The notes under the pieces: generated by a model
What the model saw: only the letters and a program-made list of their open reading frames with translations
Databases searched by the model: none
What the model was told of the DNA's origin: nothing
Part shown: positions 3,597 through 52,603 of the stretch, one piece after another
Position numbering within the stretch: the first letter of the stretch is position 1
Layout of the letters: each line of letters starts with the position of its first letter
Source of the DNA: Caprimulgus europaeus
Lineage: Eukaryota > Chordata > Aves > Caprimulgiformes > Caprimulgidae
Direction: 5' to 3'
NCBI GenBank assembly: GCA_907165065.1
Contig: OU015523.1
Span: 125,427,023-125,491,022 of the forward strand
Length of the DNA: 64,000 nucleotides
Program-made: the position numbers and the translations under genes

Positions 3597-14481
<10,885 letters not shown>

Positions 14482-15371: not shown

Positions 15372-16175
15372 GTGGGAAATGGAGCTGCTGGGATGGGAAA
15401 TGGAGCTGCTGAGGTGGGAGATGGAGCTGCTGAGGTGGGAGATGGGGCTGCTGGGATGGGAGATGGAGCTGCTGGGGTGGGAGATGGAGCTGCTGGGATG
15501 GGAGATGGAGCTGCTGTGGTGGGAGATGGAGCTGCTGTGGTGGGAGATGGGGCTGCTGGGATGGGAGATGGAGCTGCTGGGGTGGAAAATGGAGCTGCTG
15601 GGATGGAAAATGGAGCTGCTGGGGTGGGAGATGGAGCTGCTGGGATGGGAGATGGAGCTGCTGAGGTGGGAGATGGAGCTGCTGAGATGGGAGATGGAGC
15701 TACTGGGATGGGAGATGGAGCTGCTGAGGTGGGAGATGGGGCTGCTGGGATGGGAGATGGAGCTGCTGGGATGGGAGATGGGGCTGCTGGGATGGGAGAT
15801 GGGGCTGCTAGGATGGGAGATGGAGCTGCTGGGATGGGAGATGGGGCTGCTGAGGTGGGAGATGGAGCTGCTGGGATGGGAGATGGGGCTGCTGAGGTGG
15901 GAGATGGAGCTGCTGAGGTGGGAGATGGAGCTGCTGAGGTGGGAGATGGAGCTGCTGGGATGGGAAATGGAGCTGCTGGGATGGGAGATGGGTCTGCTGG
16001 GATGGGAGATGGGGCTGCTGAGGTGGGAGATGGAGCTGCTGAGGTGGGAGATGGAGCTGCTGAGGTGGGAGATGGAGCTGCTGGGATGGGAAATGGAGCT
16101 GCTGGGATGGGAAATGGAGCTGCTGAGGTGGGAGATGGGGCTGCTGAGGTGGGAGATGGGGCTGCTGAGGTGGCA
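15372..16175 (+). repeat. 21-bp minisatellite, ~38 copies
   Basis: Unit GAGCTGCTGGGATGGGAGAT plus one base, with GGATGG/GAGGTGG and GAGAT/GAAAT variants. Because 21 is a multiple of three, several frames stay open with a seven-residue repeat. I see no gene signal around it. Confidence 0.96.
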
Positions 16176-29014: not shown

Positions 29015-29105
29015 CTACTTGCGGAGCTGGAGGCTCTCCAGCAGGACGCGCTGGTGCCCCGGATCCAGCACCCCGGCCTCCTCCAGATCCTCCTCCGTGA
29101 TGTCA
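29015..29105 (-). CDS. INPPL1: INPPL1 last exon, SAM end and stop
   Basis: Residues 1326-1355, DITEEDLEEAGVLDPGHQRV then LLESLQLRK-stop, TAG at 29017-29015. Confidence 0.96.
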
Positions 29106-32100
29106 CTGCCGGGGGGGGGGGACACATGGGACTCCCTGCCCCCGGGGGGGGGGCGTACCCCAACCCCACCCCCTCCACCCCCCCACCCAGGGGGGATCCC
29201 TCAGTGGGTGCAGAACCCCCCCACTCATGGTGCTGGTGTCCCCCCCCAAACTTCTCCCCATCCCCACTGGGGGGTTCCACAGCCTTGGGAGGCAAAGGGG
29301 ACCCCCCACACCCCAAATACAGCTGGGACCCCCAGGGACAGCACGGGGGAGGCACCCCAAGTGTTCTCCCCATGGCAGGGTGCCCCCACCATCCCCCCCC
29401 CCCCCCCCCCATGGCTTGGGGTGGGGAGTGGCAGGGTTTGGGGTCCCCCCATCACACCTCAGGGTGGAGTTGGGGGGGAGGGGGTTGAGGGGGGGATTTT
29501 GGGGGTTAGTGGGGTGAATTGTGGGGGTTGGGGGGATTTTGAGGGTTGGGGGGTAGATTTTGGGGGTTGGGGGTGGATTTGGGGGTTGGGGGGATTTTGA
29601 GGGTTGGGGGTGGATTTTGGGGTTGGGGGGGAATTTGAGGGTTGGGGGGTAGATTTGGGGGGTTGGGGGTGGATTTTGAGGGTTGAGGGGTGGATGTTGA
29701 GGGGTGGATGTTGAGGGGTGGATGTTGAGGGGTGGATTTGGGGGCTCGGGGGGGGTCTCTCACCTGAGGAACTCCAGGTCATCCCATCCATTTTGCACCA
29801 GCCCCCCCTCGTACCGCTCCAGCCCCAGCGCCCGCAGCCACTCGCCCACGCCGGCCACGGCGCCCATCCCACGGCTTCCCTGGCACAGCGCCTGCGCCAC
29901 AGCGCCCACGTCACCCCGGGGTGCCCCTGACCCCCCCCAAAATGGGGAGGGAGGGGGGGGATGACAAGGGGACACCCCCATCCCAACACCCACCTCCTCA
30001 GCCAGATCCTCCTGGATGCTCTCCCGGATGGAATGGGGGGGGAAGGCGAGGGGGCGGCCGTAATCGGGGTGCAGGCAGCGGGGGGGCAGCCCCCCTTTAA
30101 CCAATAATGGTTGAGGGGGGGTCACCAAACCTTTCCCACCCCCGTAGTCCACTTCACTCAGCGTTTTGGCCATTTGCAGCACCGAGCAGGAACGGTCGTC
30201 CAGCAACCCCCCCGCTGACGGCAGCCCCCCGGCACCGGCAAGACCCCCGGCACCGGCAAGACCCCCAGCAGTTGGAAGCCCCCCAACACCAGGGTGCCCC
30301 CCAGCAGCTGGAAGCCCCCCAACACCAGGGTGCCCCCCAGCAGTTGGAAGCCCCCCAACACCGGGATGCCCCCCAGCACTGGGAAGACCCCCTGTAGTTG
30401 GAAGCCCCCCAACACTAGGATGCCCCCCAGCACTGGGAAGCCCCCCAACACCAGGATGCCCCCCAGTAGTTGGAAGCCCCCCAACACCAGGATGCCCCCC
30501 AACACCAGGAATGCCCCCAGCACCGGGGGTCCCCCCAGCCCCCTCCAACCCCACCCCAGCCCCAGCAGCCGGCGGGGGCCGTGGGTGCACTTTGGGTGCC
30601 GGGGACTCGCCAAAGCCGGTGGCGCCGGCGGCCGCTCGCAGTTTGGGCTCGGTGGGAGCCGGCGCCTCTTTGGCGGTGCCATAGAAGGGGTTGGGGGGCA
30701 ACTCGAGCTCCCGGGGCAGCGGCGGGGGGGGGAAGTCGGGGGGTGGCAGGTTGAGGGTCCCCACGTCCTCATCCGAGGAGCTCTCCTCGCCGCGGCACGG
30801 CGCCGCTTGTCCGGTCGAGGGGTGTCGGTGTCGTTCGGGCACCGTCAGCTGCACCTTGGTTTTAGGGGTGGGGGGTTTTCCGGGGTCCCCCGGTGCCAGC
30901 AGCTGGTGGGGGACCCCCTCCAGCACGTAATAGGCCGGGTTGTTGAAGCTGTTTTTCAGCGGCACCGGTTCCGGTGACACCTCCGGTTTGGATCTGTGGG
31001 TACACAAGGGGTGAGCGGGGCACCCTTGGGTGGGGGTCCCACCTCCCCCACCCACCCCAGACCCTGCCCAGCTCCTCTCACCGGCTCGGGGGGGTCTCGT
31101 CCCTGGTGGTGCCACCCCGGTGTGGGGCAGGGGGCCGGGGGGTGGGTGCAGAGCTCCCCTTCTCCGGTTCCTCCGGTAGCTTTGCCGGGATGGTGGTGGG
31201 TGGGTCGGTACCGGGGGGCTTCCGTCCCACCGACCTGGGCAATGAGAGGTGTGGGGTGACCCGTGGGGTGACCTGTGGGGCTCGGCCCCCCCCTCCAAGG
31301 ATGGGGCTCAGACCCCTGGGATGGGGCTCAGCCCCCCAGGACAGAGCTGGGCCCCCCAAAATGGGACTCAGCCCCCCAAAATGGGACTCAGACCCACAGG
31401 TTGGGGCTCAGACCCCCAGGATAGAGTTGGACCCCCCAGAACAGGGATCCACCCCTCAGGACAGAGCTCAGACCCCCATGATGGGGATCAGCCCCCCAGG
31501 ACAGAGCTTGGTCCCCCAGGATGGGGTTCAGCCCCCCAGGATGGGGCTCAGCCCCCCAGAACAGAGCTGGGCCCCCCAGGATGGGGCTCACACCCCCAGG
31601 ATGAGGCTCACACCCCCAGATGAGGCTCAGCCCCCCAGGATGGAGCTGGACCCCCGAGGATGAGGCTCACACCCCCAGGATGATGCTCAGCCCCCCAGGG
31701 TGGAGCTGGACCCCCCAGGATAGGGCTCAGCCCCCCAGGACAGCACCAGCACTGTCCCCAACCACATCGCACGTGCCATCCCCGAGGGACACTGAGTGCC
31801 ACCCATGCTCCCACAGCACCAGGAGACACTCAAACCCCTCCTGGGACCCCCAGAACCCCACAGTTGGGGGGTCACCAGTGCTCCCCCCCCCTCCCACCCC
31901 AAGCCCTGTCCCCCCCATACTTGGCATAGTCCTGGTTGGCTCTGGCACCCAGCGGCACCTTCCCTTTGCCAGCCGCTGTCTCGTCCTTATCCACACTGAT
32001 CCACTCTGCCAGGGGACAGGGAGGGGGGGGGGTCAGTGTGGAGGTGTGTGGGGGGGTCCCATTGCCATTATCCCACCCCTGGAATTGGGTTGGGGGGGGT

Positions 32101-35100: not shown

Positions 35101-38100
35101 CTTCACACCAGACCCCCCCCCACCCTCTGCACTGGACCCCCATCTCCACACTGGACCCCTGTCAGACCCCCAGCTCCACACTGGACCCCCACCTGCTCAG
35201 CAGACCCCCATTGGACCCCTGTCTCTGCATTGGACCCCCACCTGACCCCCATCTCTGCACTGGACCCCCCATCTCCACACCAGACCCCGTGGGACCCCCA
35301 TCTCCACACCAGACCCCATGGGACCCCCATCTCTGCACTGAACCCCCACCAGACCCTCACCTCTATAATGGACCCCCTTCTCCATGTTGGACCCCCTCAG
35401 ACCCCCACCTCTGCACCAGACCCTCATCTCCACACTGGACCCCCATCTCCATGCTGGACCCCCACCTGACCCCCACCTCCACACTGGACCCCACTGGACC
35501 CCCCTCCCCATCCCAGACCCCACGGGACCCCCGTCCCCACACCAGACCCCACAGGACCCCCGTCCCCACACCAGACCCCACGGGACCCCCGTCCCCACAC
35601 CAGACCCCACAGGACCCCCGTCCCCACACCAGACCCTCCCAGGGAGCAGGTCCCCATCCAGCAGGAGCCCCTCAGGTGCCCCCACCGGGGTGACACCCCC
35701 CCCTCCTTCACCCCCACCACAGCAGAGCTACACCAAGGGCTGTTCCTCATGGAAACCCCCCACCCCCAAACCTCTGAGAGGACCCCCCCTCCCCCCATAA
35801 ACAAACCCCAACCCCAACCCACCAGCGCTGGAGCATCCACAGCTTCCAAACACCCTCAGCGGAGCCACCCATGGGTGTCCCCCACCCCCCCCCACCAGGG
35901 ACCCCTCCCCAGGGGGGGCTCTCACCGGGCGGTACTCGACCTCGGTGAAGTCCTTGAGGACAGCCCTGAGGAAATCCACCCACTCCTTGTCCCCCAGGGA
36001 GTTCTCCTGGGTGCCAAAGACGTAGATGTCGTGGGGGATGGCCACCGTCACCTCGTCCAGCGTCTTCCCCAGCCCCTTCGAGGTGAACCACGATGTGATA
36101 TTCTTGGGTGGGGGGACGCTGCCTGTGGGGGGGAGCAGGGTGGTTATGAGGGTGTGGGGGGGTCCTTCAGGGGGTCAGGAGACCCCCCAGGTGCACCCAC
36201 CCATGTTCCAGGTGCCGATGAAGATGGAGATCATGTCGGGCTCGTCCTGGTGGGAGTGTTTGTTCTTCATCAGCTGCAGGAGCTGGCAGAAAGCTTCTCG
36301 CTTCTGGGGAGGGGGTGTCGTGGTGAGGAGGGGGTGTCGTGGTGAGGAGGGGGTGTCGTGGTGAGGAGGGGGTGTTGTGGTGAGGGGGGGGCTGAGGGGT
36401 TCTCCATGACCCCCTCCTCCTCACCAGCCCCACTGCAGCTCCCCCTATTCGTGACTTGGTACTGCCCGGGTGTGGGACCATCCTGGGGACATCTCTGAAC
36501 CCCCACGGGGGAGTTGCCCCCCCCCCCCCTATTCCTCTGTGGGACCCTTCCCCAACCCACTGTGGGACCCCCCACCCATCCCTCCATGAGACCCCCCCTC
36601 CCCATCTCTCTATGGGACCCCCCCACCCATCCCTCTGTGTGACACCCCTCATCCCATTGTGGGACCCTCCATGAGACCCCCCCCCATCCTTCTGTGGGAC
36701 CCCATCCATTCCACTGTGGGACCCCTCCCCGCCCTGCCCAATTCCCCCATGGGACCCCCCCCCATCCCTCTTTTCCCCCATGGGACCCCCCACCCATCCT
36801 TCCTTTGTGGGACCCCATCCATCCCTCCATGAGACCCCCCCCAAATCTCCTCATGGGAGCCCCCACTCAACCCCCATGGGACCCCCCCATCCCTCTGTGG
36901 GACCCCCCACCATTCTTTCCTTGGGATCCCCCCAGTCCCCCCGTGGAACCCCCCACCCCATCCCTCCGTGAGACCCACCCCAGCCTCTCCGTGGGACCTC
37001 CCACTCAACCCCTGTGGGACCCCCCCATCCCCCTGTAGGACCCCCCGCCCCCCCATCCCCCCATGGGACCCCATCCATCCCTCCACAGGGCACCCCCTCA
37101 TCCCCCATGGGACCCCCCCCTATTTCTCCATAGGACCCCCCCACCCCATCCCTCCATGCGACCCCTCACCCATCCTTCCTTGGGACCCCCCCATCCCTTC
37201 ATGAGACCCCCCCATCCCCCATGGGACCCCCCCCATCTCTCCATGGGACCCCCCCTCATCCCCCGTGGGACCCCCCACCCCATCCTCCATGAGACCCCCC
37301 CTCATCTCCCGTGAGACCCCCCCTCATCTCCCGTGGGCCCCCCCCCTATCTCCCCATGAGACCCCCCATGAGACCCCCCACCCATCCCTCCGCAGGACCC
37401 CCCCATCCCTTCATGAGACCCCCCCTTCATCCCCTGTGGGACCCCCCCCTCATCTCCCGTGAGACCCCCCCCTCATCCCCCGTGTAACCCCCCACCCCAT
37501 CCTCTGTGGGACCCCCCCCATCTCCCCATGAGACCCCCTCTCATCCCCCATGGGACCCCCCACCCCATCCTCCATGAGACCCCCCCCCATCACCCTATGA
37601 GACCCCCCACCCATCCCTCCACAGGACGCCCCCTCACCCCCCCATGCCCCCCCCCGTGCCCCCCCCGTGTCCCCCCCGGACCCACCCTCGCGCTGACGAA
37701 CACGAAGTCCTTCCGCTGGGTCTTGTCCCTGTCCTTCTCCAGCACGATCCCCAGTTTGTTCTGCACCCGCTGGGACTTGATCAGCTGCCGGACTGGGAGG
37801 AGGGACAGGCGGGGGGGGCACTGGGCTGGCTCCAGGCACCCGTGTCCCCCCCCCACTCGTGATTTTCCCCCCCATCAGGGTCTGGGGGTCACCCAGGGTT
37901 GGGGGGACACCCAGGATGGTGACAACCTGCTGCTTGTTGGGACATTCCCCACACAGAGGTGCCAGTCTGGGTGCAGGGATCCCCCCACCCCACTCGTGTC
38001 CCCCCCACCCCACTCGTGATTTCCCCCCCCATCAGAGTCTGGGGGTCAGGGGGGGACAGCCAGGATGGTGACAACCCACTGCTTGTTGGGACATTCCCCA

Positions 38101-41100
38101 CACAAGAGGTGCCAGTCTGGGTGCAGGGACCCCCCACTCATGTCCCCCCCACCCCACTCATGTTCCCCCCATCTCACTTGTGTGTTCCCCCACCCGTGTT
38201 TTTCCCCCCCCATCAGAGTCTGGGGGTCACCCAGGGTTAGGGGGGGACACCCAGGATGGTGACAACCCGCTGCTTGTTGGGACATTCCCCACACAGAGGT
38301 GCCAGTCTGGGTGCAGGGACCCCCTCACTCCACTCATGCCTCCCCCCAACTCGTGTCCCCCCCCCACTCGTGATTTCCCCCCCTCCATCAGGGTCTGGGG
38401 GTCACCCAGGGTTGGGGGGACACCCAGGATGGTGACAACCCGCTGCTTGTTGGGACATTCCCCACACAGAGGTGCCAGTCTGGGTGCAGAGACCACCCCA
38501 CTCATGTCCCCCCCACCCCACTCGTGTCCCCCCCACCCCACTCGTGTCCCCCCCACCCACTCGTGATTCTCCCCCCCAATCAGGGTCTGGGGGTCACCCA
38601 GAGTGGGGTGGGGACACCCAGGACAGTGACAACCCGCTGCTTGTTGGGACATTCCCCACACAGAGGTGCCAGTCTGGGTGCAGGGACCCCCCCACCCCAC
38701 TCGTGTCCCCCCCCACCCGTGTCCCCCCCACCCGTGCCCCCCCTCACTCTTGTCGTGGGTGAAGGTGTTCCAGTCCTCCTGGCAGTCCCGGGGTCTCTTC
38801 AGCACCACCAGGCGCCCCCCCTCCACGTCCACGCTCAGCGTCTGCTTCTGCGACTTCCCGATCTTGGTCAGGTCCCCCAGGGTGACATCGAGCTTCACCT
38901 GGGGGGGACACGGGGGGGACACGGGGGGGACACCCAGGGTGACATCGAGCTTCACCTGGGGGGACACGGGGGGGGGACACCCAGGGTGACATCGAGCTTC
39001 ACCTGGGGGGGACACGGGGGGGGACACCCAGGGTGACATCGAGCTTCACCTGGGGGGGACACGGGGGGGACACCCAGGGTGACATCCAGTTTCACCTGGG
39101 GGGGACACGGGGGGGACACGGGTGGGGGACACCCAGGGTGGGGGGGGGACACCCAGGCTGACATCCAGCTTCACCTGGGGGGGACACGGGGGGGACACCC
39201 AGGGTGACATCGAGCTTCACCTGGGGGGGGACACGGGGGGGGACACGGGGGGGGACACCCAGGGTGACATCCAGCTTCACCTGGGGGGGACACGCGGGGG
39301 GACACGGGGGGGACACCCAGGGTGGGGGGACACACCCAGGGTGACATCCAGCTTCACCTGGGGGGGACACGGGGGGGGACACCCAGGGTGACATCGAGCT
39401 TCACCTGGGGGGGGACACGGGGGGGGACACCCAGGGTGGGGGGGGGGACACCCAGGGTGACATCCAGCTTCACCTGGGGGGGACATGCGGGGGGACACAG
39501 GGGGGACACCCAGGGTGACATCGAGCTTCACCTGGGGGGGACACGGGGGGGGACACGGGGGGGGACACCCAGGGTGACATCGAGCTTCACCTGGGGGGGA
39601 CACGGGGGGGGACACGGGGGGGGACACCCAGGGTGACATCGAGCTTCACCTGGGGGGGACACGGGGGGGGACACCCAGGGTGACATCCAGCTTCACCTGA
39701 GAGGGGACACCCAGGGTTGGGGGGGGGACACATCCCAGCACCTGGCATTTTGTGACACCAAAATTGTCCCCGTCCCCAAATCGGGGGGGGGAGCAGGTTC
39801 CTTTTTGGGGGGGGTCCCTTTTTGGGGGGGTCCCTTTCGGGGGGGTCCCTTTGGGGGGGTCCCTTTTTGGGGGGTCCCTTTGGGGGGTCCCCGCTCACCT
39901 CGAAGGTCTGCACCGGGATGCTCTTGGCCTTGCGGGACAGGGGCTGGGGGGGGGCCGGGGGGGCGGCCGAGCTCATCTCCTGCAGAGCCTTCAGCGCCTG
40001 GAGCAGCCCCCGCGTCAGCCACCCCCCCAAACCACCCCGGACCCCCCCAGACCTCCCAGGGACCCCCCCCGGGACCCCAGAGACACCCCCAGGGACCCCC
40101 CCAGGACCCCCCAGGGACCCCCGAGACCCCCCCAGGGACCCCCCCAGGGAACCCCCGGAACCCCAGAGACAACCCCAGACCCCCCCCAGGACCCCCCAGG
40201 GACCCCCGAGACCCCCCCAGGGACCCCCCCAGACACCCCCGGGACCCCCCAGGGACACCCCCAGGGACACCCCCAGGGACCCCAGAGACACCCCCAGACC
40301 CCCCCAGACACCCCCCAGGGACCCCAGAGACACCCCCAGACCCCCCCAGACCCCCCCGGGACCCCCCAGACCCCCCCAGGATCCCCCAGATCCCCCCGGG
40401 ACCCCCCAGACCCCCCCAGACACCCCGCCGGGACCCCAGAGACACCCCCAGACCTCCCAGAGACCCCCTGAGACCTCCCCAGAACCCTCAGATCCCCCCC
40501 CCAAGATCCAAGACCCCCCCAGAAACCCCGCCCAAATATCCCAGACCCCCCAGTGACCCCCCAGACCCCTCAGAGACCCCCCAAAGATCCCAGAGACCCC
40601 CCCAGAGACCTCCCCAAATACCCCAGAGCCCCCAGAGACTCCCCCCCAGACGCCCCAGCTCCACCAGCACCCACCCAGTCCCACCAGTTCTCCCAGTTCC
40701 ACCAGCCCCCCCCAGCTTCAACAACCCCCCCCCACTCCACCAGCCCACCCAGCTCCATCAACCCCCCAGCCCTCCCAGTTCTCCCAGTCTCCCCAGTCCC
40801 ACCAGTCCCCCCCAGTCTCCCCATCCCCACCAGCCCCCCCAGTCCCCCCAGTCCCACCAGCCCCCCCAGTCCTCCCAGTCCCCCCCAGTCCCCCCCAGTC
40901 CCCCCCAGTCCCCCCAGTCCCACCAGCCTCTCCAGTCCCCCCAGTCTCCCCAGCCCCACCAGTCCCCCCAGTCCCACCAGCCCCCCCAGTCCCACCAGTC
41001 CCACCAGTACCCCCAGTCCACTCACCCCCACCAGTCCCTCACCCCCACCAGCCCCCCCCAGCCCCATCAAACCCCCATCTCCACCAGCCCCCCCAGTGCC

Positions 41101-44100: not shown

Positions 44101-47100
44101 AGAAAGGACCCCCCCCATGCAGGGACCCCCTCAATGCAGGGACCCTTCCCCACGCAGAGCCCCCCTAGACCCCTCCATGAAGTCACCCCCCCTATACAGA
44201 GATCCCCACACAGTGGGACCCCCCCCCTTTCTCCACAGAGGGACCCCCCTGTGCAGGATGGGGGGGCTGAGCCCCCACCCCAAAGCTGAGCCCCACAGGG
44301 AGTGGGGCCCTGGGTACACGGCACCCTCTGCAGGGGACAGGGGACAGGCAGGGGACAGGGGACAGGCAGGGGACAGGGGACAGGCAGCTGCCACCCCGCA
44401 GCCCCCTCCCCCGCTCCCTCCCTCCCGGGGGCGGTTCCCGCTGTCCCGGGCACACAAAGCCGCTTCTGTGGCTCTAAAAATACCGGCGCCGCCGGCCAGT
44501 CCGGTGGGCACCGCGCCCGGGGCCGGGCAGACGGACGGACAGACGGACAGACAGACAGACGGGCATGCTCACGGCACGGTGCCAAAGCCTGGCACACTCA
44601 GGGCACAGTGAGTGCCAAAGCCTGGCACACTCATGGCACAGTGCCAAAGCCTGGCACACTCAGGGCACAGTGAGTGCCAAAGCCTGGCACACTCAGGGCA
44701 CAGTGCCAGAGCCTGGCACACTCAGGGCACAGTGCCAAAGCCTGGCTGTGCCAGAGAGCCTGGCACACTCATGGCACAGTGAGTGCCAAGGCCTGGCACA
44801 CTCGTGGCACAGTGTCAGAGCCTGGCACACTCAGGGCACAGTGAGTGCCAAAACCTGGCACACTCATGGCACAGTGCCAAAGCCTGGCACAGTCATGGCA
44901 CAGTGAATGCCAAAGCCTGGCACACTCAGGGCACAGTGAGTGTCAGAGCCTGGCACACTCAGGGCACAGTGAGTGCCAGAGCCTGGCACACTCATGGCAC
45001 AGTGCCAAAGCCTGGCACACTCATGGCACAGTGCCAAAGCCTGGCACACTCATGGCACAGTGAATGCCAAAGCCTGGCACACTCATGGCACAGTGTCAAA
45101 GCCTGGCACACTCATGGCACAGTGAATGCCAAAGCCTGGCACACTCAGGGCACAGTGAATGCCAGAGCCTGGCACACTCAGGGCACAGTGCCAAGGCCTG
45201 GCACACTCATGGCACAGTGAGTGCCAGAGCCTGGCACACTCAGGGCACAGTGACGCGACCGAGCCCCCCACACCCAGCCCCACGGGAACTGGCACTGACT
45301 GGGGGTCCCACCACCCCGACCCTCCACCACCGGGACCCCCCCACCCACTGCCTCTCCCCCCACCCCCCCCACCACAGCGGGGTGTCCCCGTGTCACCGGG
45401 TCGGGGGGACACACGGGACCCACCTGCACGGCCAGGAACTCGTCCTCGTCGGGCAGGATGCGGTAGGTGTGGACGTGCTTCTGGAACCTGCGGGGACAGG
45501 GACAGCTCTGCTGCCATCGCCATCGTGGCACCACCACCACCATCTCCATCATCATCACCACCACCATCATCACCATCACCACTGTCACCATCGTCACCAC
45601 CATCACCACCATCGTCACCACCATCACCACCATCATCACCACCATCACCATCACCACCATCACTACCACCACCACCACCACCATCATCACCACCACCATC
45701 ACCACCACCACCACCATCACCACCACCATCATCACCACCACCACCATCATCACCACCATCACCACCACCATCACCACCACCATCACCACCACCATCACCA
45801 TCACCACCACCATCACCACCACCATCACCACCACCATCATCACCACCACCATCACCACCACCACCACCACCACCATCACCACCACCATCACCATCACCAT
45901 CACCACCACCATCACCACCACCATCACCATCACCACCATCATCATCACCACCACCACCATCATCACCACCATCACCACTGTCACCATCGTCACCATCATC
46001 ACCACCATCACCACTGTCACCATCATCACCACCACCACCACCATCATCACCATCATCCCCATGACCATCGCCACCGTGGCTGGCATGGCACGAGCTGCCC
46101 AGCCTCAGCCCACCAGGAAATGGCAGTGAGAGGGGTGCTGGGGGTCCCAGGTGGGTGCTGGGGGTCCCAGGTGGGTGCTGGGATGGGCTTTGGGGGTCCC
46201 AGGTGGGTGCTGGGGCTCTTGGATGGGTGCTGAGAGAATGCTGGGGGGCCCAGCTGGGTGCTGGAAGCCCTGGGTGGGTGCTGGGGGGTCACAGATGGGT
46301 GCTGGGGGACCCAGGTGGGTTTTGGGGGTCCCAGGTGGGTGCTGGGGGGCATGGGTGAGTGCTGGGATGGGCTTTTGGGGTCCCAGGTGGGTGCTGGGGG
46401 GCATGGGTGGGTGCTGGGATGGGCTTTGGGGGTCCCAGGTGGGTGCTGGGGGGCCCAGCTGGGTGCTGGAAGCCCTGGGTGGGTGCTGGGGGCTCACAGA
46501 TGGGTGCTGGGGGGGGCAGGTGGGTGCTGGGGGGCCCAGGTGGGTGCTGGGAGTTCCAGAGTGACCCCCCCACTCTCTCTGATGGGGACTCCACAACTGA
46601 CACCCCCATGTCCCCAGGCAGTGCTACAGCCTGTCCCTGTCCCCACGCCGTGCCACGGGTGCCAGCCCCGCTGCCTGTCCCTGTGCCACAGCCAGTGTCC
46701 CCTGCCCACGGCACAGGGACAGGCAGGGACGGGGACAGGGACAGGCAGGGGACAGGGACAGGCAGGTATGGGGACAGGCAGGGGACCGGGACAGGCAGGG
46801 GACCGGGACAGGCAGGGGACAGGGACGGGGACAGGCAGGGATGGGGACAGGCAGGGATGGGGACCGGGACAGGCAGGGGACCGGGACAGGCAGGGGACAG
46901 GGACGGGGACAGGCAGGGATGGGGACAGGCAGGGATGGGGACAGGGACAGGCAGGGACAGGGACAGGCAGGGATGGGGACAGGCAGGAGACGGGGACAGG
47001 CAGGGGACGGGGACAGGCAGGGGACAGGCAGGGACGGGGACAGGGACAGGCAGGGATGGGGACGGGGACAGGCAGGGGATAGGGACAGGCAGGGACGGGG

Positions 47101-50100: not shown

Positions 50101-52603
50101 ACGCCCCGCACGTGGCACAGCCTCGGGGCCACGCACGCTCCTGGTTCTTCCCCCGGTGCCGGTGCCCACAGGCTCTCGGGGAGCGGGAGAACCTCCCGGG
50201 GTGCCCCGGCCACGCCGCCTGCCCCACAACCACATCAAGGGCCCGGGAGAGCTGCTGGCACACCCCGGCACACCCCGGCAGCACCCCAGCAGCACCCCGG
50301 GACACCCTGGGAGCACCCTGAGACACCCCGGCAGCACCCCGGCAGCACCCCGGGACGCCCCGGGAGCACCCCAGCTGCATCCCGGGACGCCCTGGCAGCA
50401 CCCCGGGACACCCCAGGAGCACCCCGGCAGCACCCCAGGACACCCCAGGAGCACCCCGGGACACCCCGGCAGCACCCCAGCAGCACCCCGGGACGCCCCG
50501 GCAGCACCCCGGCACGGTGCTGTCCCACGCCACCGGCACGCCGAGGCCATGGGGACACCGGGGTGACCGGGGTCCACTGCAGGGTGACAGCTGAGCTGCC
50601 ATCCCAGTGCCACCGCGCTCAGGGCAGAGGGGGTGGCAGCACCCTGAGGACCCCCAGTGCCCGCTGGTGTTGCCGTAGGAGCCCCCCCAGTAGCCCCCCA
50701 CCCTGGGCTGGGGACCCCCAGTGTCCCTCCAGTCTGCTGGTGCCTGAGATCCCCAGCCCAGCACTGATGCCAGCCCCCTGTGCCCCCGCCCCCCCCAGCA
50801 ATGCCAGTGCCCCCCAGGTCTCCTCGTGTCTGTGCCCCCCCAGACCCCAAACTGCCCCTTCCCTGTCTCAACCCACTGACAGCCCCCCCAATGCCCATTC
50901 CCCCCCCCCCCAGTAGTGCTGGTGACCCTCACGTCTGGGGTGGCCCCCCACAGAGGAGTGTCCCCCCCCATAACTGCTGCCCTCTGGGTGTCAGTGACCC
51001 CCCCAGTGCTCCTCCCAGTAACCCACCAGTGCTTCCCCAGGTCCCCTCCAGTGCCCCTCTAGACTCCCCCTGTGCCCCCCAGATCTCCCCTGGATCCCAA
51101 ACAGTGCTCCCCCAGACCCCCCCGGTGCCCCCCTCGACTCTCTTCCCAGATTCCGCCCCCCCCGGTAACCCCTGGACCCCCCCGGTGACCCCCAGATCTC
51201 CCCCAGTCCCCCCAGGTGCTCTCCTGGACCCCTCCCAGTCTCCCTATGGTGACCCCCCAGATTCCTCCGTTACTGCCTCAGAGCCCCCCGTCCCTCCCGG
51301 TGCTCCCCCGGTGCTTCCCTGGACCCCTTCCCGGTCCGTCCCCCCCCCCCCGGTGCTTCCCTGGATTCTCCCCGGAACCCCTCGGATTTCCCTCGGTGCC
51401 CCCCCCGTGCCCCCACCGCTGCCTCCTCGGATTCCCCCCCGGTGTCTCCCCCCATGCCCCCCCGCCCCGGGGCTTCCCTGGACCCCCCGCCCCAGCCTCC
51501 CCCGGTGTCCCACTCCGGTGCCCCCCGGTGTCCCGCCCCGATGCTCATCCGGTGTCCCCATCGACGTGTCCCTGGACCCCCTCAGTTTCCCCCGGTGCCC
51601 CCCCCCCAGTGACCCCCGGATCTTCCCCAGCCCCTCTCCATTCCCTCCCCCGGTGTCCCCCCGTGTCCCCCCGTGCCTCCCTCGACGCTTCCCTGGTCCC
51701 CCCCCCTCCCCGCTTCTCCCCATGTCCCTCCTGGTGTGTCCCCCCGGTGTCCCCTCGCATTCTACCGGTGTCTTCCGGTGTCCCCCCCCAAGTGTCCCCC
51801 GTCTATTCCCCCGGTGCCCCCCTCGACGCTTCCCTGGATCCCCTCTGGTCCCTCCCGGTGTCCCCCCTGGTGTCTCCCCAGTGTCCCCTTCCCGTTCTAC
51901 CGGCGTCCTCCGGTGCCACCCCCCCAGTGTGTCCCCCCCATTCCCCCAGTGTCCCTCTCGAACCTTCCCCGGGTCCCCCTCGCTGTCCCCCCGCGTTTTA
52001 ACAGTGTCTCCCCCAGTCCCGCCCTCGACGTTTCCCTGGGTCTCCCCCCAGTGTCCCCCCGGTGTCCCCATCACTCCCCTCCGGTGCCCGCCTTCGACGC
52101 TTCCCTGGATCTCCCCCCCCGGTGTCCCCCCCGATTCTACCGGTGTCCTCCGGTGCCCCTCCGCCAGTGTCCCCCCCCGGTGTCCCCTTCGACGCTTCTC
52201 TGGATTCCCCCCCGGTGTCCTCGCGGTGTCCCCCCCCAGTTCTACCGGTATCCCCTCCGCTCCCTCGCGGTGTCCACCGGTGCCCCCCCCCTCCAGTGTC
52301 CCCCCTATTCCCCCGGTGTCCCCCCCGGTGCCCCCCTCGACGCTTCTCCGGCTCCCCCCCGCTCCCTCCCGGTGTCCCTCCCGGTGTCGCCGCGGTGTCC
52401 CCCAGCTCCCTCCCGTTGTCCCCCCCGGTGTCCCCGCGGTGTCCCCCCCGCACTCACAGCAGACACAGCGCGTAGGCCCCCGCCACGCTCTCGCTGTCCC
52501 GCACCAGGAAGCTGCCGTCCCGCCCCGCCCGCGCCAGCTGCTCCTCGGCCGCGGCCCGGCTCAGGTCCCGGTGGTACCAGGGCGGCCCCCCCGCGCCCGC
52601 CAT
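29015..52603 (-). CDS. INPPL1: INPPL1 (SHIP2), inositol polyphosphate 5-phosphatase
   Basis: 28 exons on the minus strand join to 4,068 nt, a 1,355-aa frame. SHIP2 removes the 5-phosphate of PI(3,4,5)P3 at the plasma membrane and damps insulin and growth-factor signalling. Domains: SH2 (~9-105, FLVRDSES with R35); 5-phosphatase core (~405-715) with FIGTWNMG, FGTQE, PSWCDRILW (670-678) and TSDHSPV (699-705); a C2-like region to ~870; a proline-rich tail with NPAY (968-971); SAM domain (~1297-1355) with WLRALGLERYE. Start: MAGAGG-P-PWYHRDLS at 52603. Every junction has AG and GT and phase closes throughout. It is about 100 aa longer than human SHIP2 (~1,258 aa), largely through an in-frame repeat in exon 26 (residues ~1103-1211). 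Most larger introns carry a tandem repeat. Confidence 0.97.
29470..29750 (+). repeat. INPPL1 intron 27 G/T-rich array
   Basis: Units of GATTTTGGGGGTTGGGGGG, 20-37 bp, then TGGATGTTGAGGGG repeats. Confidence 0.88.
29764..29891 (-). CDS. INPPL1: INPPL1 exon 27, SAM
   Basis: Residues 1284-1325, ALCQGSRGMGAVAGVGEWLR then GLVQNGWDDLEFL. The acceptor GCGCAG at 29892-29893 was chosen because it keeps phase 0 and aligns with the family. An AG at ~29927 would break the frame. Confidence 0.92.
29994..30993 (-). CDS. INPPL1: INPPL1 exon 26, NPAY and in-frame repeat
   Basis: A 1,000-nt exon, residues 950-1283. It starts SKPEVSPEPVPLKNSFNNPA (NPAYY phosphotyrosine motif). It continues to GEESSSDEDVGTLNLPPPDF, then a ~109-residue Gly-rich repeat, then DDRSCSVLQMAKTLSEVDYG and IRESIQEDLAEE. 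The flanks are strongly conserved, so the exon and frame are secure although its middle is repetitive. Confidence 0.94.
30208..30535 (-). repeat. INPPL1: Coding 36-bp minisatellite in INPPL1 exon 26
   Basis: The plus strand repeats CAGTTGGAAGCCCCCCAACA plus CCAGGGTGCCCCCCAG, a 36-bp unit, about eight copies plus shorter relatives. On the coding strand it gives the 12-residue unit GGHPGVGGLPTA. Confidence 0.93.
31082..31234 (-). CDS. INPPL1: INPPL1 exon 25, proline-rich
   Basis: Residues ~899-949, SVGRKPPGTDPPTTIPAKLP then PTPRPPAPHRGGTT. It is SH3-ligand-like and less conserved than its neighbours. Confidence 0.92.
31300..31740 (+). repeat. INPPL1 intron 25 array
   Basis: GGATGGGGCTCAGCCCCCCA and GACAGAGCTGGGCCCCCCA alternate, about 30 bp, ~14 copies. 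Confidence 0.9.
31921..32005 (-). CDS. INPPL1: INPPL1 exon 24
   Basis: Residues 871-898, EWISVDKDETAAGKGKVPLG then ARANQDYA. Donor GTATGG. Confidence 0.95.
32108..32263 (-). CDS. INPPL1: INPPL1 exon 23
   Basis: Residues 819-870, GECVIALKSMIGSTAQQFLT, then HRGEETGNIRGSMKVRV and ERLGTRERLY. Confidence 0.97.
32365..32452 (-). CDS. INPPL1: INPPL1 exon 22
   Basis: Residues 790-818, LKPILSEIEYLQDQHLLLTV then KSLDGYESY. Confidence 0.96.
32551..32639 (-). CDS. INPPL1: INPPL1 exon 21
   Basis: Residues 760-789, EFKKSFENDSQSSDNINFLK then VQWSSRQLPT. Confidence 0.96.
32732..32845 (-). CDS. INPPL1: INPPL1 exon 20
   Basis: Residues 722-759, GLSKSSEQAYIEFESIEAIV then KFFIEFYSTCLE, the start of the C2-like region. 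Confidence 0.96.
32958..33047 (-). CDS. INPPL1: INPPL1 exon 19, catalytic motif
   Basis: Residues 692-721, GCTDDIVTSDHSPVFGSFEV then GVTSQFVSKK. SDHSPV carries the catalytic Asp-His pair. Donor GTGTCT. Confidence 0.97.
33166..33247 (-). CDS. INPPL1: INPPL1 exon 18, catalytic motif
   Basis: Residues 665-691, VRTNVPSWCDRILWKSYPET then HVNCNAY. PSWCDRILW is a 5-phosphatase signature. Confidence 0.97.
33357..33445 (-). CDS. INPPL1: INPPL1 exon 17, phosphatase
   Basis: Residues 635-664, EEEITFPPTYRYERGSRDTY then VWHKQKPTG. Donor GTAGGT. Confidence 0.97.
33542..33641 (-). CDS. INPPL1: INPPL1 exon 16, phosphatase
   Basis: Residues 602-634, EILNYISRRELEPLLKVDQL then EKEKHKVFLRF. Confidence 0.97.
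33732..33870 (-). CDS. INPPL1: INPPL1 exon 15, phosphatase
   Basis: Residues 555-601, RNQNYLDILRLLSLGDKQLS then HLFWFGDLNYRLDMDIQ. Confidence 0.97.
33962..34058 (-). CDS. INPPL1: INPPL1 exon 14, phosphatase
   Basis: Residues 523-554, GNKGAVGVSFMFNGTSFGFV then NCHLTSGNEKTA. Confidence 0.97.
34248..34480 (+). repeat. INPPL1 intron 13 ~31-bp array with CACGTG in each unit
   Basis: Unit ACACACGTGCACAGACCCCT plus CCTCGTGCAAC, about seven copies, each with the palindrome CACGTG. Confidence 0.93.
34548..34665 (-). CDS. INPPL1: INPPL1 exon 13, phosphatase
   Basis: Residues 484-522, VAMQSLWNIKVVVLVKPEHE then RISHVSTSSVKTGIANTL. Confidence 0.97.
34690..35640 (+). repeat. INPPL1 intron 12 arrays
   Basis: First part: GATGGACCCCTGAGAGACCC and CAATGGACCCCCACC units. 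Second part: CACACTGGACCCCCATCTC units. Last part: near-perfect 27-bp CCCCGTCCCCACACCAGACC units (35515-35640). Confidence 0.92.
35926..36122 (-). CDS. INPPL1: INPPL1 exon 12, phosphatase
   Basis: Residues 418-483, GSVPPPKNITSWFTSKGLGK, then IPHDIYVFGTQEN (catalytic-site Gln-Glu), ending EVEYRP. Confidence 0.97.
36201..36303 (-). CDS. INPPL1: INPPL1 exon 11, phosphatase start
   Basis: Residues 384-417, KREAFCQLLQLMKNKHSHQD then MISIFIGTWNM. The TWNM asparagine is a metal-site residue of 5-phosphatases. Confidence 0.97.
36530..37680 (+). repeat. INPPL1 intron 10 GGGACCCCCC array
   Basis: About 1.15 kb of CATCCCTCCATGAGACCCCC and TGGGACCCCCCACCC units, 20-45 bp. A 17-bp GGGGGTGTCGTGGTGAG repeat (x4-5) sits at 36305-36385. 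Confidence 0.9.
37686..37792 (-). CDS. INPPL1: INPPL1 exon 10
   Basis: Residues ~348-383, RQLIKSQRVQNKLGIVLEKD then QRKDFVFVSAR. Donor GTGGGT. Confidence 0.96.
37850..38735 (+). repeat. INPPL1 intron 9 ~150-195 bp tandem repeat, 5 copies
   Basis: Each copy holds CATCAGGGTCTGGGGGTCAC, GATGGTGACAACCCGCTGCT, GTTGGGACATTCCCCACACA and GTGCCAGTCTGGGTGCAGGG. The last phrase starts near 37961, 38109, 38300, 38473 and 38668. Confidence 0.93.
38748..38898 (-). CDS. INPPL1: INPPL1 exon 9
   Basis: Residues 298-347, VKLDVTLGDLTKIGKSQKQT through EDWNTFTHDK. The first ~24 bases and the acceptor are copied many times in the upstream intron (see the repeat at 38905-39715), so 38898 is the 3'-most of about 15 similar acceptors. 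Confidence 0.95.
38905..39715 (-). repeat. INPPL1: INPPL1 intron 8: array of exon-9 acceptor copies
   Basis: On the minus strand each unit reads CCCCAG, then GTGAAGCT(C/G)GATGTCACC, then CTGGGTGTCCCCCC. The first two pieces equal the acceptor and start of exon 9. I count 14 copies upstream of the true one, near 38945, 38992, 39037, 39084, 39163, 39209, 39269, 39345, 39394, 39463, 39521, 39581, 39641 and 39686. Confidence 0.95.
39899..39997 (-). CDS. INPPL1: INPPL1 exon 8
   Basis: Residues 265-297, ALKALQEMSSAAPPAPPQPL then SRKAKSIPVQTFE. Donor GTGAGC. Confidence 0.95.
40025..41235 (+). repeat. INPPL1 intron 7 C-rich arrays
   Basis: 40030-40470: GGGACCCCCCAGAGACCCC-type units. 40650-41100: CCCAGTCCCACCAGCCCCCC units. 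Confidence 0.9.
41245..41334 (-). CDS. INPPL1: INPPL1 exon 7
   Basis: Thirty codons, residues 235-264, GGGSSGEQELESLVLKLSVL then KDFLAGIERK. The poly-G start makes the exact acceptor uncertain by a codon. Confidence 0.93.
41345..42275 (+). repeat. INPPL1 intron 6 ~60-65 bp array
   Basis: Units hold AGGGGCAGGACCCCCCCAGC, ACCATGGGACAGGACAGGAT and GGGACCCCCAGATCCA, about 13 copies. A diverged form, GAGACCCCCTGGATCCATCC, is confined to 41905-42240. Confidence 0.93.
42393..42483 (-). CDS. INPPL1: INPPL1 exon 6
   Basis: Residues ~204-234, EVDKVLAGLEILSKVFDQQS then SPVVSRILQQ. Confidence 0.96.
42564..42701 (-). CDS. INPPL1: INPPL1 exon 5
   Basis: Residues ~158-203, TNGLSSISHEYLRSSYSLDL through LPHLNKTLVTSCKRLH. 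Donor GTGGGT. Confidence 0.96.
42773..42884 (-). CDS. INPPL1: INPPL1 exon 4, linker
   Basis: Residues ~121-157, DGEDEKPPLPPRSGSTSFSS, a Pro/Ser-rich linker conserved in SHIP2. Confidence 0.95.
42962..43112 (-). CDS. INPPL1: INPPL1 exon 3, SH2 end
   Basis: Residues 71-120, starting TSQGVPARRFGTLSELIALY and including QPNQGLVCPLLFPVE. Donor GTACCA. Confidence 0.96.
43195..44250 (+). repeat. INPPL1 intron 2 array A
   Basis: CACTGAGGGACACCCCCATG plus GAGGGACCCCCCCAAGCACA units of ~55 bp to ~43680. After that come shorter CATGCAGGGACCCCCC units to ~44250. Confidence 0.92.
44572..45255 (+). repeat. INPPL1 intron 2 array B, ~28-32 bp
   Basis: Unit GCCAAAGCCTGGCACACTCA plus (T/G)GGCACAGT, with an optional GAGT insert, about 22 copies. 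Units without the insert create GGC-N5-GCCA palindromes. Confidence 0.95.
45424..45487 (-). CDS. INPPL1: INPPL1 exon 2, SH2
   Basis: Residues 49-70, FQKHVHTYRILPDEDEFLAV then Q. Acceptor CGCAG, donor GTGGGT. Confidence 0.96.
45525..46075 (+). repeat. INPPL1 intron 1 (CAC/CAT)n trinucleotide tract
   Basis: About 550 bp of ACC/ATC triplets. Open frames of His, Thr/Ile or Val/Met repeats across it are artefacts. Confidence 0.97.
46130..46560 (+). repeat. INPPL1 intron 1 GGTGGGTGCTGGGGG array
   Basis: Units of 20-32 bp, GGGGGTCCCAGGTGGGTGCT and relatives. Confidence 0.93.
46716..47150 (+). repeat. INPPL1 intron 1 GGGACAGGCAGGGGAC array
   Basis: Units of 12-18 bp (GGGGACAGGCAGGGA), ~30 copies. 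Confidence 0.95.
47525..48362 (+). repeat. INPPL1 intron 1 ~33-66 bp array
   Basis: CCCCTGGTGTCACCCCACTC plus CCCACAGTGCCACGT units, ~24 copies. Confidence 0.92.
48910..49290 (+). repeat. INPPL1 intron 1 ~57-bp array
   Basis: CATCACCACCCTCTGCCACC, ACCACGGTGATGGGGTCACC and ACCCTGGCACTGC form the unit, six to seven copies. Confidence 0.95.
49300..50245 (+). other. INPPL1 intron 1, mostly unique CpG-rich stretch
   Basis: About 950 bp between arrays, CpG-rich, with no recognised exon. It could hold an internal promoter or enhancer of INPPL1. Nothing decisive is visible. Confidence 0.4.
50258..50520 (+). repeat. INPPL1 intron 1 CACCCCGGCAGCACCCC array
   Basis: Units of 15-30 bp, GGGACACCCCGGCAGCACCC, ~11 copies. 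Confidence 0.92.
50800..52440 (+). repeat. INPPL1 intron 1 CCCGGTGTCCCCCC array
   Basis: About 1.6 kb of CCCCCGGTGTCCC units with larger copies holding TCGACGCTTCCCTGG and TTCTACCGGTGTC. It runs up to 18 bases from the exon 1 donor. Confidence 0.9.
52458..52603 (-). CDS. INPPL1: INPPL1 exon 1, start and SH2
   Basis: ATG at 52603-52601 and residues 1-48. It includes PWYHRDLSRAAAEE and SFLVRDSESVAGAYALCL. The donor is GTGAGT, and the last two bases share a Leu codon with exon 2. Confidence 0.96.

Follow-up and report, generated by a model that had tools for sequence, protein, structure and literature searches.

Tandem copies of an exon edge together with its splice site have been published from introns of GC-rich avian genes as exon stuttering (Hron et al. 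2026, Genome Biol Evol, PMC12954441). According to the main text of that study, such copying creates potential alternatively spliced transcripts. Out of 236 affected introns, 190 reside on dot chromosomes and 36 on macrochromosomes; the copied exon parts comprise 20-187 nt, the copies number 1-44 and the arrays span 112-23,555 bp. INPPL1 is not named in this main text, the list of the 115 stuttering genes being part of the supplement. The mirage minisatellites of amphioxus globin genes also are tandem duplications of an intron end and the following exon start, with AG/GT signals in many of their units (PMC3087553). RT-PCR suggests regular splicing in the presence of the globin mirages (PMC3087553), and the same applies to the mirages of amphioxus Adh (Adh3) and troponin C (PMC3902484). 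Moreover, Duan et al. (2024, PMC10809524) showed that AGGT sites can take the role of a donor as well as that of an acceptor and that genes with tandem repeats are enriched in them. For fission yeasts, the removal of tandemly copied 24-bp AGGT segments as an intron has been reported (PMC4974935). Our literature searches disclosed no paper combining INPPL1, microchromosome and bird, none combining minisatellite, intron-exon boundary and chicken, and nothing on duplicated acceptors. The array described here belongs to this known kind and adds a high-copy acceptor example outside dot chromosomes, in which each copy contains a donor-like half.

The analyzed window, a stretch of 64,000 nucleotides from the nightjar Caprimulgus europaeus, harbors on its minus strand the gene INPPL1 (SHIP2), whose exons extend from one of the SH2 region (near 52,600) to the final coding one (near 29,018). 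A partial protein of 670 residues joined from exons of the window matched bird INPPL1 over the full query with up to 86% identity among the matches listed, and it also matched solved chains named phosphatidylinositol 3,4,5-trisphosphate 5-phosphatase 2. The assignment of the repeats to intron 8 of a bird INPPL1, made in a preliminary description of the locus, was thus affirmed by exon homology. The neighbor on the plus strand is a PHOX2A-like homeobox gene, presumably PHOX2A itself. Two further repetitive segments of INPPL1 were recorded: an 18-bp tandem repeat within the reading frame (30223-30538), which translates into repeats of the type GGLPxxGGHPGV in the C-terminal region, and a low-complexity region in intron 1 (45500-46100), whose open frames yield extended runs rich in His or in Asp/Gly.

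Intron 8 ends in a tandem array of 14 copies of the intron-8/exon-9 boundary, each composed of an AG acceptor and 23 coding bases starting at base 1 of exon 9. The true exon 9 acceptor is the last unit of the array. When the minus strand was searched between 39990 and 38690 with the pattern AG/GTGAA(A/G)CT(C/G)GATGTCA(C/G)CCT (the first slash marks the exon border), 15 matches were obtained, 14 of them decoys and one the true exon start at 38898. This search bore out the earlier claim of a minisatellite with about 14 decoys derived from the exon's own acceptor. Eight decoys were identical to the exon 9 edge, while four and two decoys agreed with it in 22 and 21 of the 23 positions, respectively. 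The acceptor end CCCCAG, which had been ascribed to the unit in general, was present in 13 of the 14 decoys; the outermost one ends with CTCTCAG, possibly the ancestral intron edge. In every copy, CAG/GTGAA places the acceptor directly against a donor-like site, AG being followed by GTGAA in 15 of 15 sites (AGGT core).

The units are spaced by 46, 47, 57, 58, 59, 60, 69, 77 or 79 nt. Beyond the first C-run, the shortest units possess one GTGT-plus-C-run sub-repeat and the longer units two; three units contain a further ACCCTGGGTGT without an exon copy. Two pairs of units (39649/39590 and 39404/39049) are identical, and the longest exact direct repeat within the array has a length of 110-119 nt. 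On the template strand the array exhibits 38 runs of 5-10 G. The sequence CCAGGTGCTGGGATGTGTCC, which immediately precedes the first unit at 39720-39750, resembles an additional, decayed copy of the unit. The coordinates of all elements are compiled in Table 1.

Table 1. Position of the exon-edge array and associated features of INPPL1 in the window. Identity of decoys refers to the first 23 nt of exon 9.
Feature	Coordinates	Strand	Remarks
INPPL1 exon 8	39899..39997	-	end ...TTCGAG, then donor GTGAGC
INPPL1 intron 8	38899..39898	-	1,000 nt
INPPL1 exon 9	38748..38898	-	true start 38898, phase 0, VKLDVTLGD; acceptor ...GTGTCCCCCCCAG; homology to bird INPPL1
Whole array, 14 decoy units and source (first 23 nt of exon 9)	38876..39717	-	GTGT-plus-C-run sub-repeat in units
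Direct repeat ACCCTGGGTG, intron flank	39708..39717	-	left partner of proposed founder slippage
Direct repeat ACCCTGGGTG, end of copied exon part	39672..39681	-	right partner of proposed founder slippage
Decoy 1, outermost	39674..39696	-	22/23; acceptor CTCTCAG
Decoy 2	39627..39649	-	23/23
Decoy 3	39568..39590	-	23/23
Decoy 4	39509..39531	-	23/23
Decoy 5	39451..39473	-	22/23
Decoy 6	39382..39404	-	23/23
Decoy 7	39335..39357	-	22/23
Decoy 8	39258..39280	-	22/23
Decoy 9	39198..39220	-	23/23
Decoy 10	39152..39174	-	21/23
Decoy 11	39073..39095	-	21/23
Decoy 12	39027..39049	-	23/23
Decoy 13	38980..39002	-	23/23
Decoy 14, nearest	38933..38955	-	23/23; sole open in-frame extension, 38899-38955, 57 nt
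GTCAC, candidate branch-point-like site	38939..38943 (A at 38940)	-	42 nt upstream of true acceptor; copied exon sequence

The settings published for exon stuttering (blastn-short, no dust, at least 20 nt, 42.1 bits) were applied to 18 exons against 17 introns of INPPL1. All 14 matches of at least 20 nt linked exon 9 to intron 8, eight of them scoring 46.1 bits, four 38.2 bits and two 30.2 bits. Upon 50 mononucleotide shuffles of the introns no match attained 42.1 bits, the best shuffled match giving 32.2 bits. As eight matches exceeded this threshold in the genuine introns and none in the shuffled ones, we concluded that the copies of the exon 9 edge are not due to chance. A 31-nt unit pattern with up to two mismatches was found at least 15 times in the 1.18-Gb genome, always in this array or in the true exon, and its reversed control had no match in the genome. 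In a comparison of 27 exons with 26 introns of INPPL1, for which some exon edges were set by hand, 12 matches reached the floor of 36 bits, again all between exon 9 and intron 8. With floors of 20 nt and 36 bits, no captured edge was detected for the 26 other INPPL1 exons or for three PHOX2A exons.

Other exon edges, too, have tandem arrays at a distance of 30 nt or less. Of 44 edges, those of exon 9 included, none was crossed by at least 8 nt on both sides by a listed TRF array, indicating that TRF alone does not reveal edge capture. Intron 10 terminates in an array of 4.4 copies of a 19-bp unit (36308-36391), which stops 4 nt before exon 11; it represents a contrasting case, since it abuts the acceptor without the AG having been copied. 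Intron 9 contains an array of four copies spaced by 173-194 nt (37846-38732), a stretch of which resembles the intron 8 unit (AGCGGGTTGTCACTGTCCTGGGTGTCC) with a score reached by none of 100 shuffles in the comparison with 11 introns. In this comparison intron 8, intron 9 (score 29) and intron 13 (score 25) surpassed all 100 dinucleotide shuffles, the matches in introns 9 and 13 being weak. Judged by this similarity, the arrays flanking exon 9 on both sides may share a motif.

We also studied the splice-site features of the copies. Sites were scored by simple counts instead of a trained model, and 20 other acceptors and 20 donors of INPPL1 served for comparison; the acceptors of exons 5, 20 and 25-27 and the donors of exons 2, 16, 19 and 24-26 were left out, and for each donor the best GT within 4 nt of the hand-set edges was taken. 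The true acceptor showed a pyrimidine fraction of 0.88 and two U, the decoys 0.75-0.88 and two to four U, whereas the medians of the 20 other acceptors were 0.78 and 3.5 U. In 13 of the 14 decoys the C-rich tract matches that of the true acceptor completely or almost completely, and a single acceptor of the same C-rich kind precedes exon 3. Splice-site strength was therefore dismissed as the deciding factor, because simple counts do not separate the true acceptor from the decoys. No match to the branch-site motif yTnAy was found in intron 8. The copied exon letters GTCAC provide a candidate T-n-A branch site, which lies at -42 relative to the true site, at -31 or -32 in six decoys and at -43 to -57 in six others; it was not found within 60 nt of the remaining two.

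The donor consensus complementary to U1 reads CAGGTAAGT. At the start of the copies, CAG/GTGAAG (CAGGTGAAG) agrees with this consensus in 6 of 9 bases, and the 20 gene donors score 4-7. At position +5 the donor-like site of the array has A, while 19 of the 20 scored INPPL1 donors have G. A different sequence behind the copied exon part, CTGG-GTGTCC, had initially been put forward as the donor-like site. Matching the consensus in only 3 of 9 bases, it was rejected as donor or exon end; the stronger CAG/GTGAAG had been overlooked.

The nearest decoy was confirmed to lie exactly 57 nt upstream of the true start and in frame with it, so that its use would add 19 residues without a stop codon, as had been pointed out before. 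According to the Pfam placement, the insertion point is located seven residues inside the start of the first C2 domain of SHIP1/2. The other 13 decoys, taken as acceptors, run into a stop inside the array. Since the frames follow no order, one open decoy close to the exon is not surprising.

To describe the genomic setting, the coverage with tandem repeats was determined in 10-kb samples along the contig, which has 126,318,510 bases, starts with TAACCC repeats and includes the window at 125,427,023-125,491,022. The first 10 kb had a coverage of 0.57, and ten samples between 0.5 and 124 Mb had 0.00-0.05. Values of 0.13 and 0.02 were obtained at 124.5 and 125.0 Mb, respectively, followed by 0.14-0.65 from 125.2 to 125.5 Mb (including the first 60 kb of the window), 0.00-0.03 at 125.6-126.2 Mb and 0.38 in the last 10 kb. 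Thus, INPPL1 belongs to a local island rich in GC and repeats, which lies about 0.8-1.1 Mb from the contig end and has repeat-poor samples on both sides; the contig is far too large for a dot chromosome. For the INPPL1 gene the coverage amounted to 0.541 at a GC content of 0.68, as against 0.000 and 0.004 at GC contents of 0.46 and 0.45 in two 10-kb stretches at its paralog, which we take to be INPP5D, on another contig (C8, 50.9 Mb). Elsewhere in the window, related reading frames occur at 1086-1574, 8240-8795 and 13566-14202, one of them with a reverse-transcriptase-like peptide; we assume that they are probably pieces of CR1 retroposons. A 21-bp tandem repeat with 38 copies (91% matching) at 15373-16167 is possibly coding (TGGGAGATGGAGCTGCTGGGA).

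The INPPL1 array shares with avian exon stuttering (PMC12954441) the tandem copies of an exon edge including the splice site, a copied part that begins exactly at the border, the location in a GC-rich and repeat-rich gene and the unaffected paralog on another contig, the repeat coverage being 0.541 for INPPL1 versus 0.000 and 0.004 in the 20 kb at the paralog. Its 23 nt of copied exon, 14 copies and span of 821 bp (39696 to 38876) are within the published ranges, and 8 of the 14 matches combine at least 20 nt with at least 42.1 bits and a score above the shuffles. It differs in being found in another bird and on a 126-Mb contig, whereas stuttering tends to affect dot chromosomes. The structure had been called unusual in the preliminary description. 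Its kind has been published (PMC12954441, PMC3087553), so that the term only suits its place, a repeat-rich island on a 126-Mb contig and not a dot chromosome. The array and the amphioxus mirages alike consist of tandemly duplicated sequence that extends across an exon-intron boundary and has AG/GT signals in many of its units. The mirage of BflGb6, from a cephalochordate, has 3 or 6 copies of 150-160 bp units, in contrast to the 14 short units of INPPL1, and in amphioxus the splicing of a mirage-bearing gene was tested (PMC3087553).

Other systems resemble single properties of the array. With the dual-specific splice sites of human UBC (PMC10809524) it shares tandem AGGT sites for which a dual role is possible in principle; the UBC units, however, are coding and frame-preserving and both uses have been observed, whereas the INPPL1 units of 46-79 nt are non-coding and break the frame, with stops in 13 of 14 extensions. 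In the intron-gain model of Rogers (PMC4974935) the duplicated segment likewise carries AG/GT and hence both splice dinucleotides in each copy, but the copies described here lie inside an existing intron. Ratchet points of recursive splicing (PMC8605326) also juxtapose an acceptor to a donor-like site; they have been described from long introns, unlike the 1,000-nt intron 8, whose sites lack G at +5.

Taken together, we think it quite probable that the array is a slippage-born and mostly neutral exon-edge minisatellite of the exon stuttering/mirage class and that splicing mainly takes place at the terminal acceptor. In its upstream flank the outermost copy bears ACCCTGGGTG, which recurs 36 nt further on as the end of the copied exon part; at the latter position the real exon 9 has ACCCTGGGGG. 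The array may have been founded at an acceptor lying between two short direct repeats, the intronic ACCCTGGGTG and the exonic ACCCTGGG; unequal exchange or slippage between the two would have duplicated approximately 36 nt containing the acceptor and the first coding bases. Such flanking repeats would yield the observed junction of the units, in which the copied GATGTC-ACCCTGGG is followed by TGTCCCC of the intron. On account of the two identical unit pairs and the direct repeat of 110-119 nt, we read the array as grown by duplication of single and multiple units, which probably was accompanied by gain of the GTGT-plus-C-run sub-repeat. Changes in the length of the C-runs would set the frame of each copy, without order.

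The likely driver of this growth would be the G-runs of the template strand and the high GC content of the locus. The G-runs fit the suggestion of Hron et al. that replication stress and G-quadruplexes are involved in stuttering (PMC12954441). Of the eleven INPPL1 introns exceeding 400 nt, nine are rich in G on the transcript strand, while introns 8 and 26 have the opposite sign; for intron 8, this strand bias is expected if the array was amplified from a polypyrimidine tract. In most transcripts, exon 8 would be spliced to the last acceptor of the array, at 38898. The decoys apart from the nearest one, if used, would introduce a stop codon and lead to decay, and the terminal acceptor presumably predominates since only its product, or a rare product of the nearest decoy with 19 additional residues, would be stable. 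As the decoys locally resemble the true acceptor, the assumed preference is based on precedent and product survival instead of site strength. Most likely, the array is near-neutral, a by-product without an evolved function.

The juxtaposition of AG and GTGAA in all 15 sites might also be understood as a bank of dual-specific sites, in which splicing selects among 15 almost identical sites and intron 8 is removed stochastically or stepwise, for instance recursively. In that case the copy-number-variable array would tune by its length the amount of productive INPPL1 mRNA and of the isoform with 19 additional residues, and individuals would differ by their alleles. This explanation, which we regard as unlikely, is favored by the score of CAGGTGAAG within the range of the gene donors and by the precedents of AGGT sites serving both roles in tandem-repeat genes (PMC10809524) and of AGGT copies spliced as introns in fission yeast (PMC4974935). 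It conflicts with the A at +5 in place of the G of nearly all scored gene donors, with unit lengths that do not keep the frame and mostly lead to stops, and with the length of the intron, which is merely 1,000 nt. In addition, neither a doubled LDVTLG nor an array-like peptide was present in the 120 homologous proteins listed out of 1,862 matches, which are gene models of other species; 24 of them contain the motif once and 96 do not contain it, a test that misses variants such as LDITLG. Among 22 inspected INPPL1 models (birds and P0005), the uninterrupted reading QTFE-VKLD(V/I)TLGD was seen in 14. Exon 9 follows exon 7 in a model from a swallow, a fragment from an ibis starts in the intron (GVPPQ-VKLD) and six do not include the junction of exons 8 and 9. 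As protein models of other species, they would only fail to support decoy use.

An array of this composition could furthermore have been collapsed, expanded or misplaced during assembly, for which long G-runs that are hard to sequence, the warning of Hron et al. about local technical variation (PMC12954441) and 64 Ns in the sampled stretch at 125.20-125.21 Mb, about 220 kb from the window, can be adduced. In view of these Ns, the repeat-rich island at 125.2-125.5 Mb may be misjoined. The units differ among themselves, however, the first 60 kb of the window contain no Ns and the flanking exons are intact, which makes an artefact improbable to our mind. The least credence we give to a conserved and selected structure, whose decoys would buffer or delay the use of the true acceptor. 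The array indeed covers the polypyrimidine tract and the branch-point region of a conserved exon, but neither the frames nor the unit lengths show any order, and introns with exon stuttering are reported to be highly variable in length between chickens.

Stuttering within a GC-rich island of so large a contig, and not on a dot chromosome, points to local composition instead of chromosome type as the decisive factor. The locus represents a natural test of how an acceptor is chosen among nearly identical sites, be it by position, by exon definition or by survival of the product. If the decoys are used, the length of the array would act as a heritable means of tuning a phosphoinositide phosphatase.
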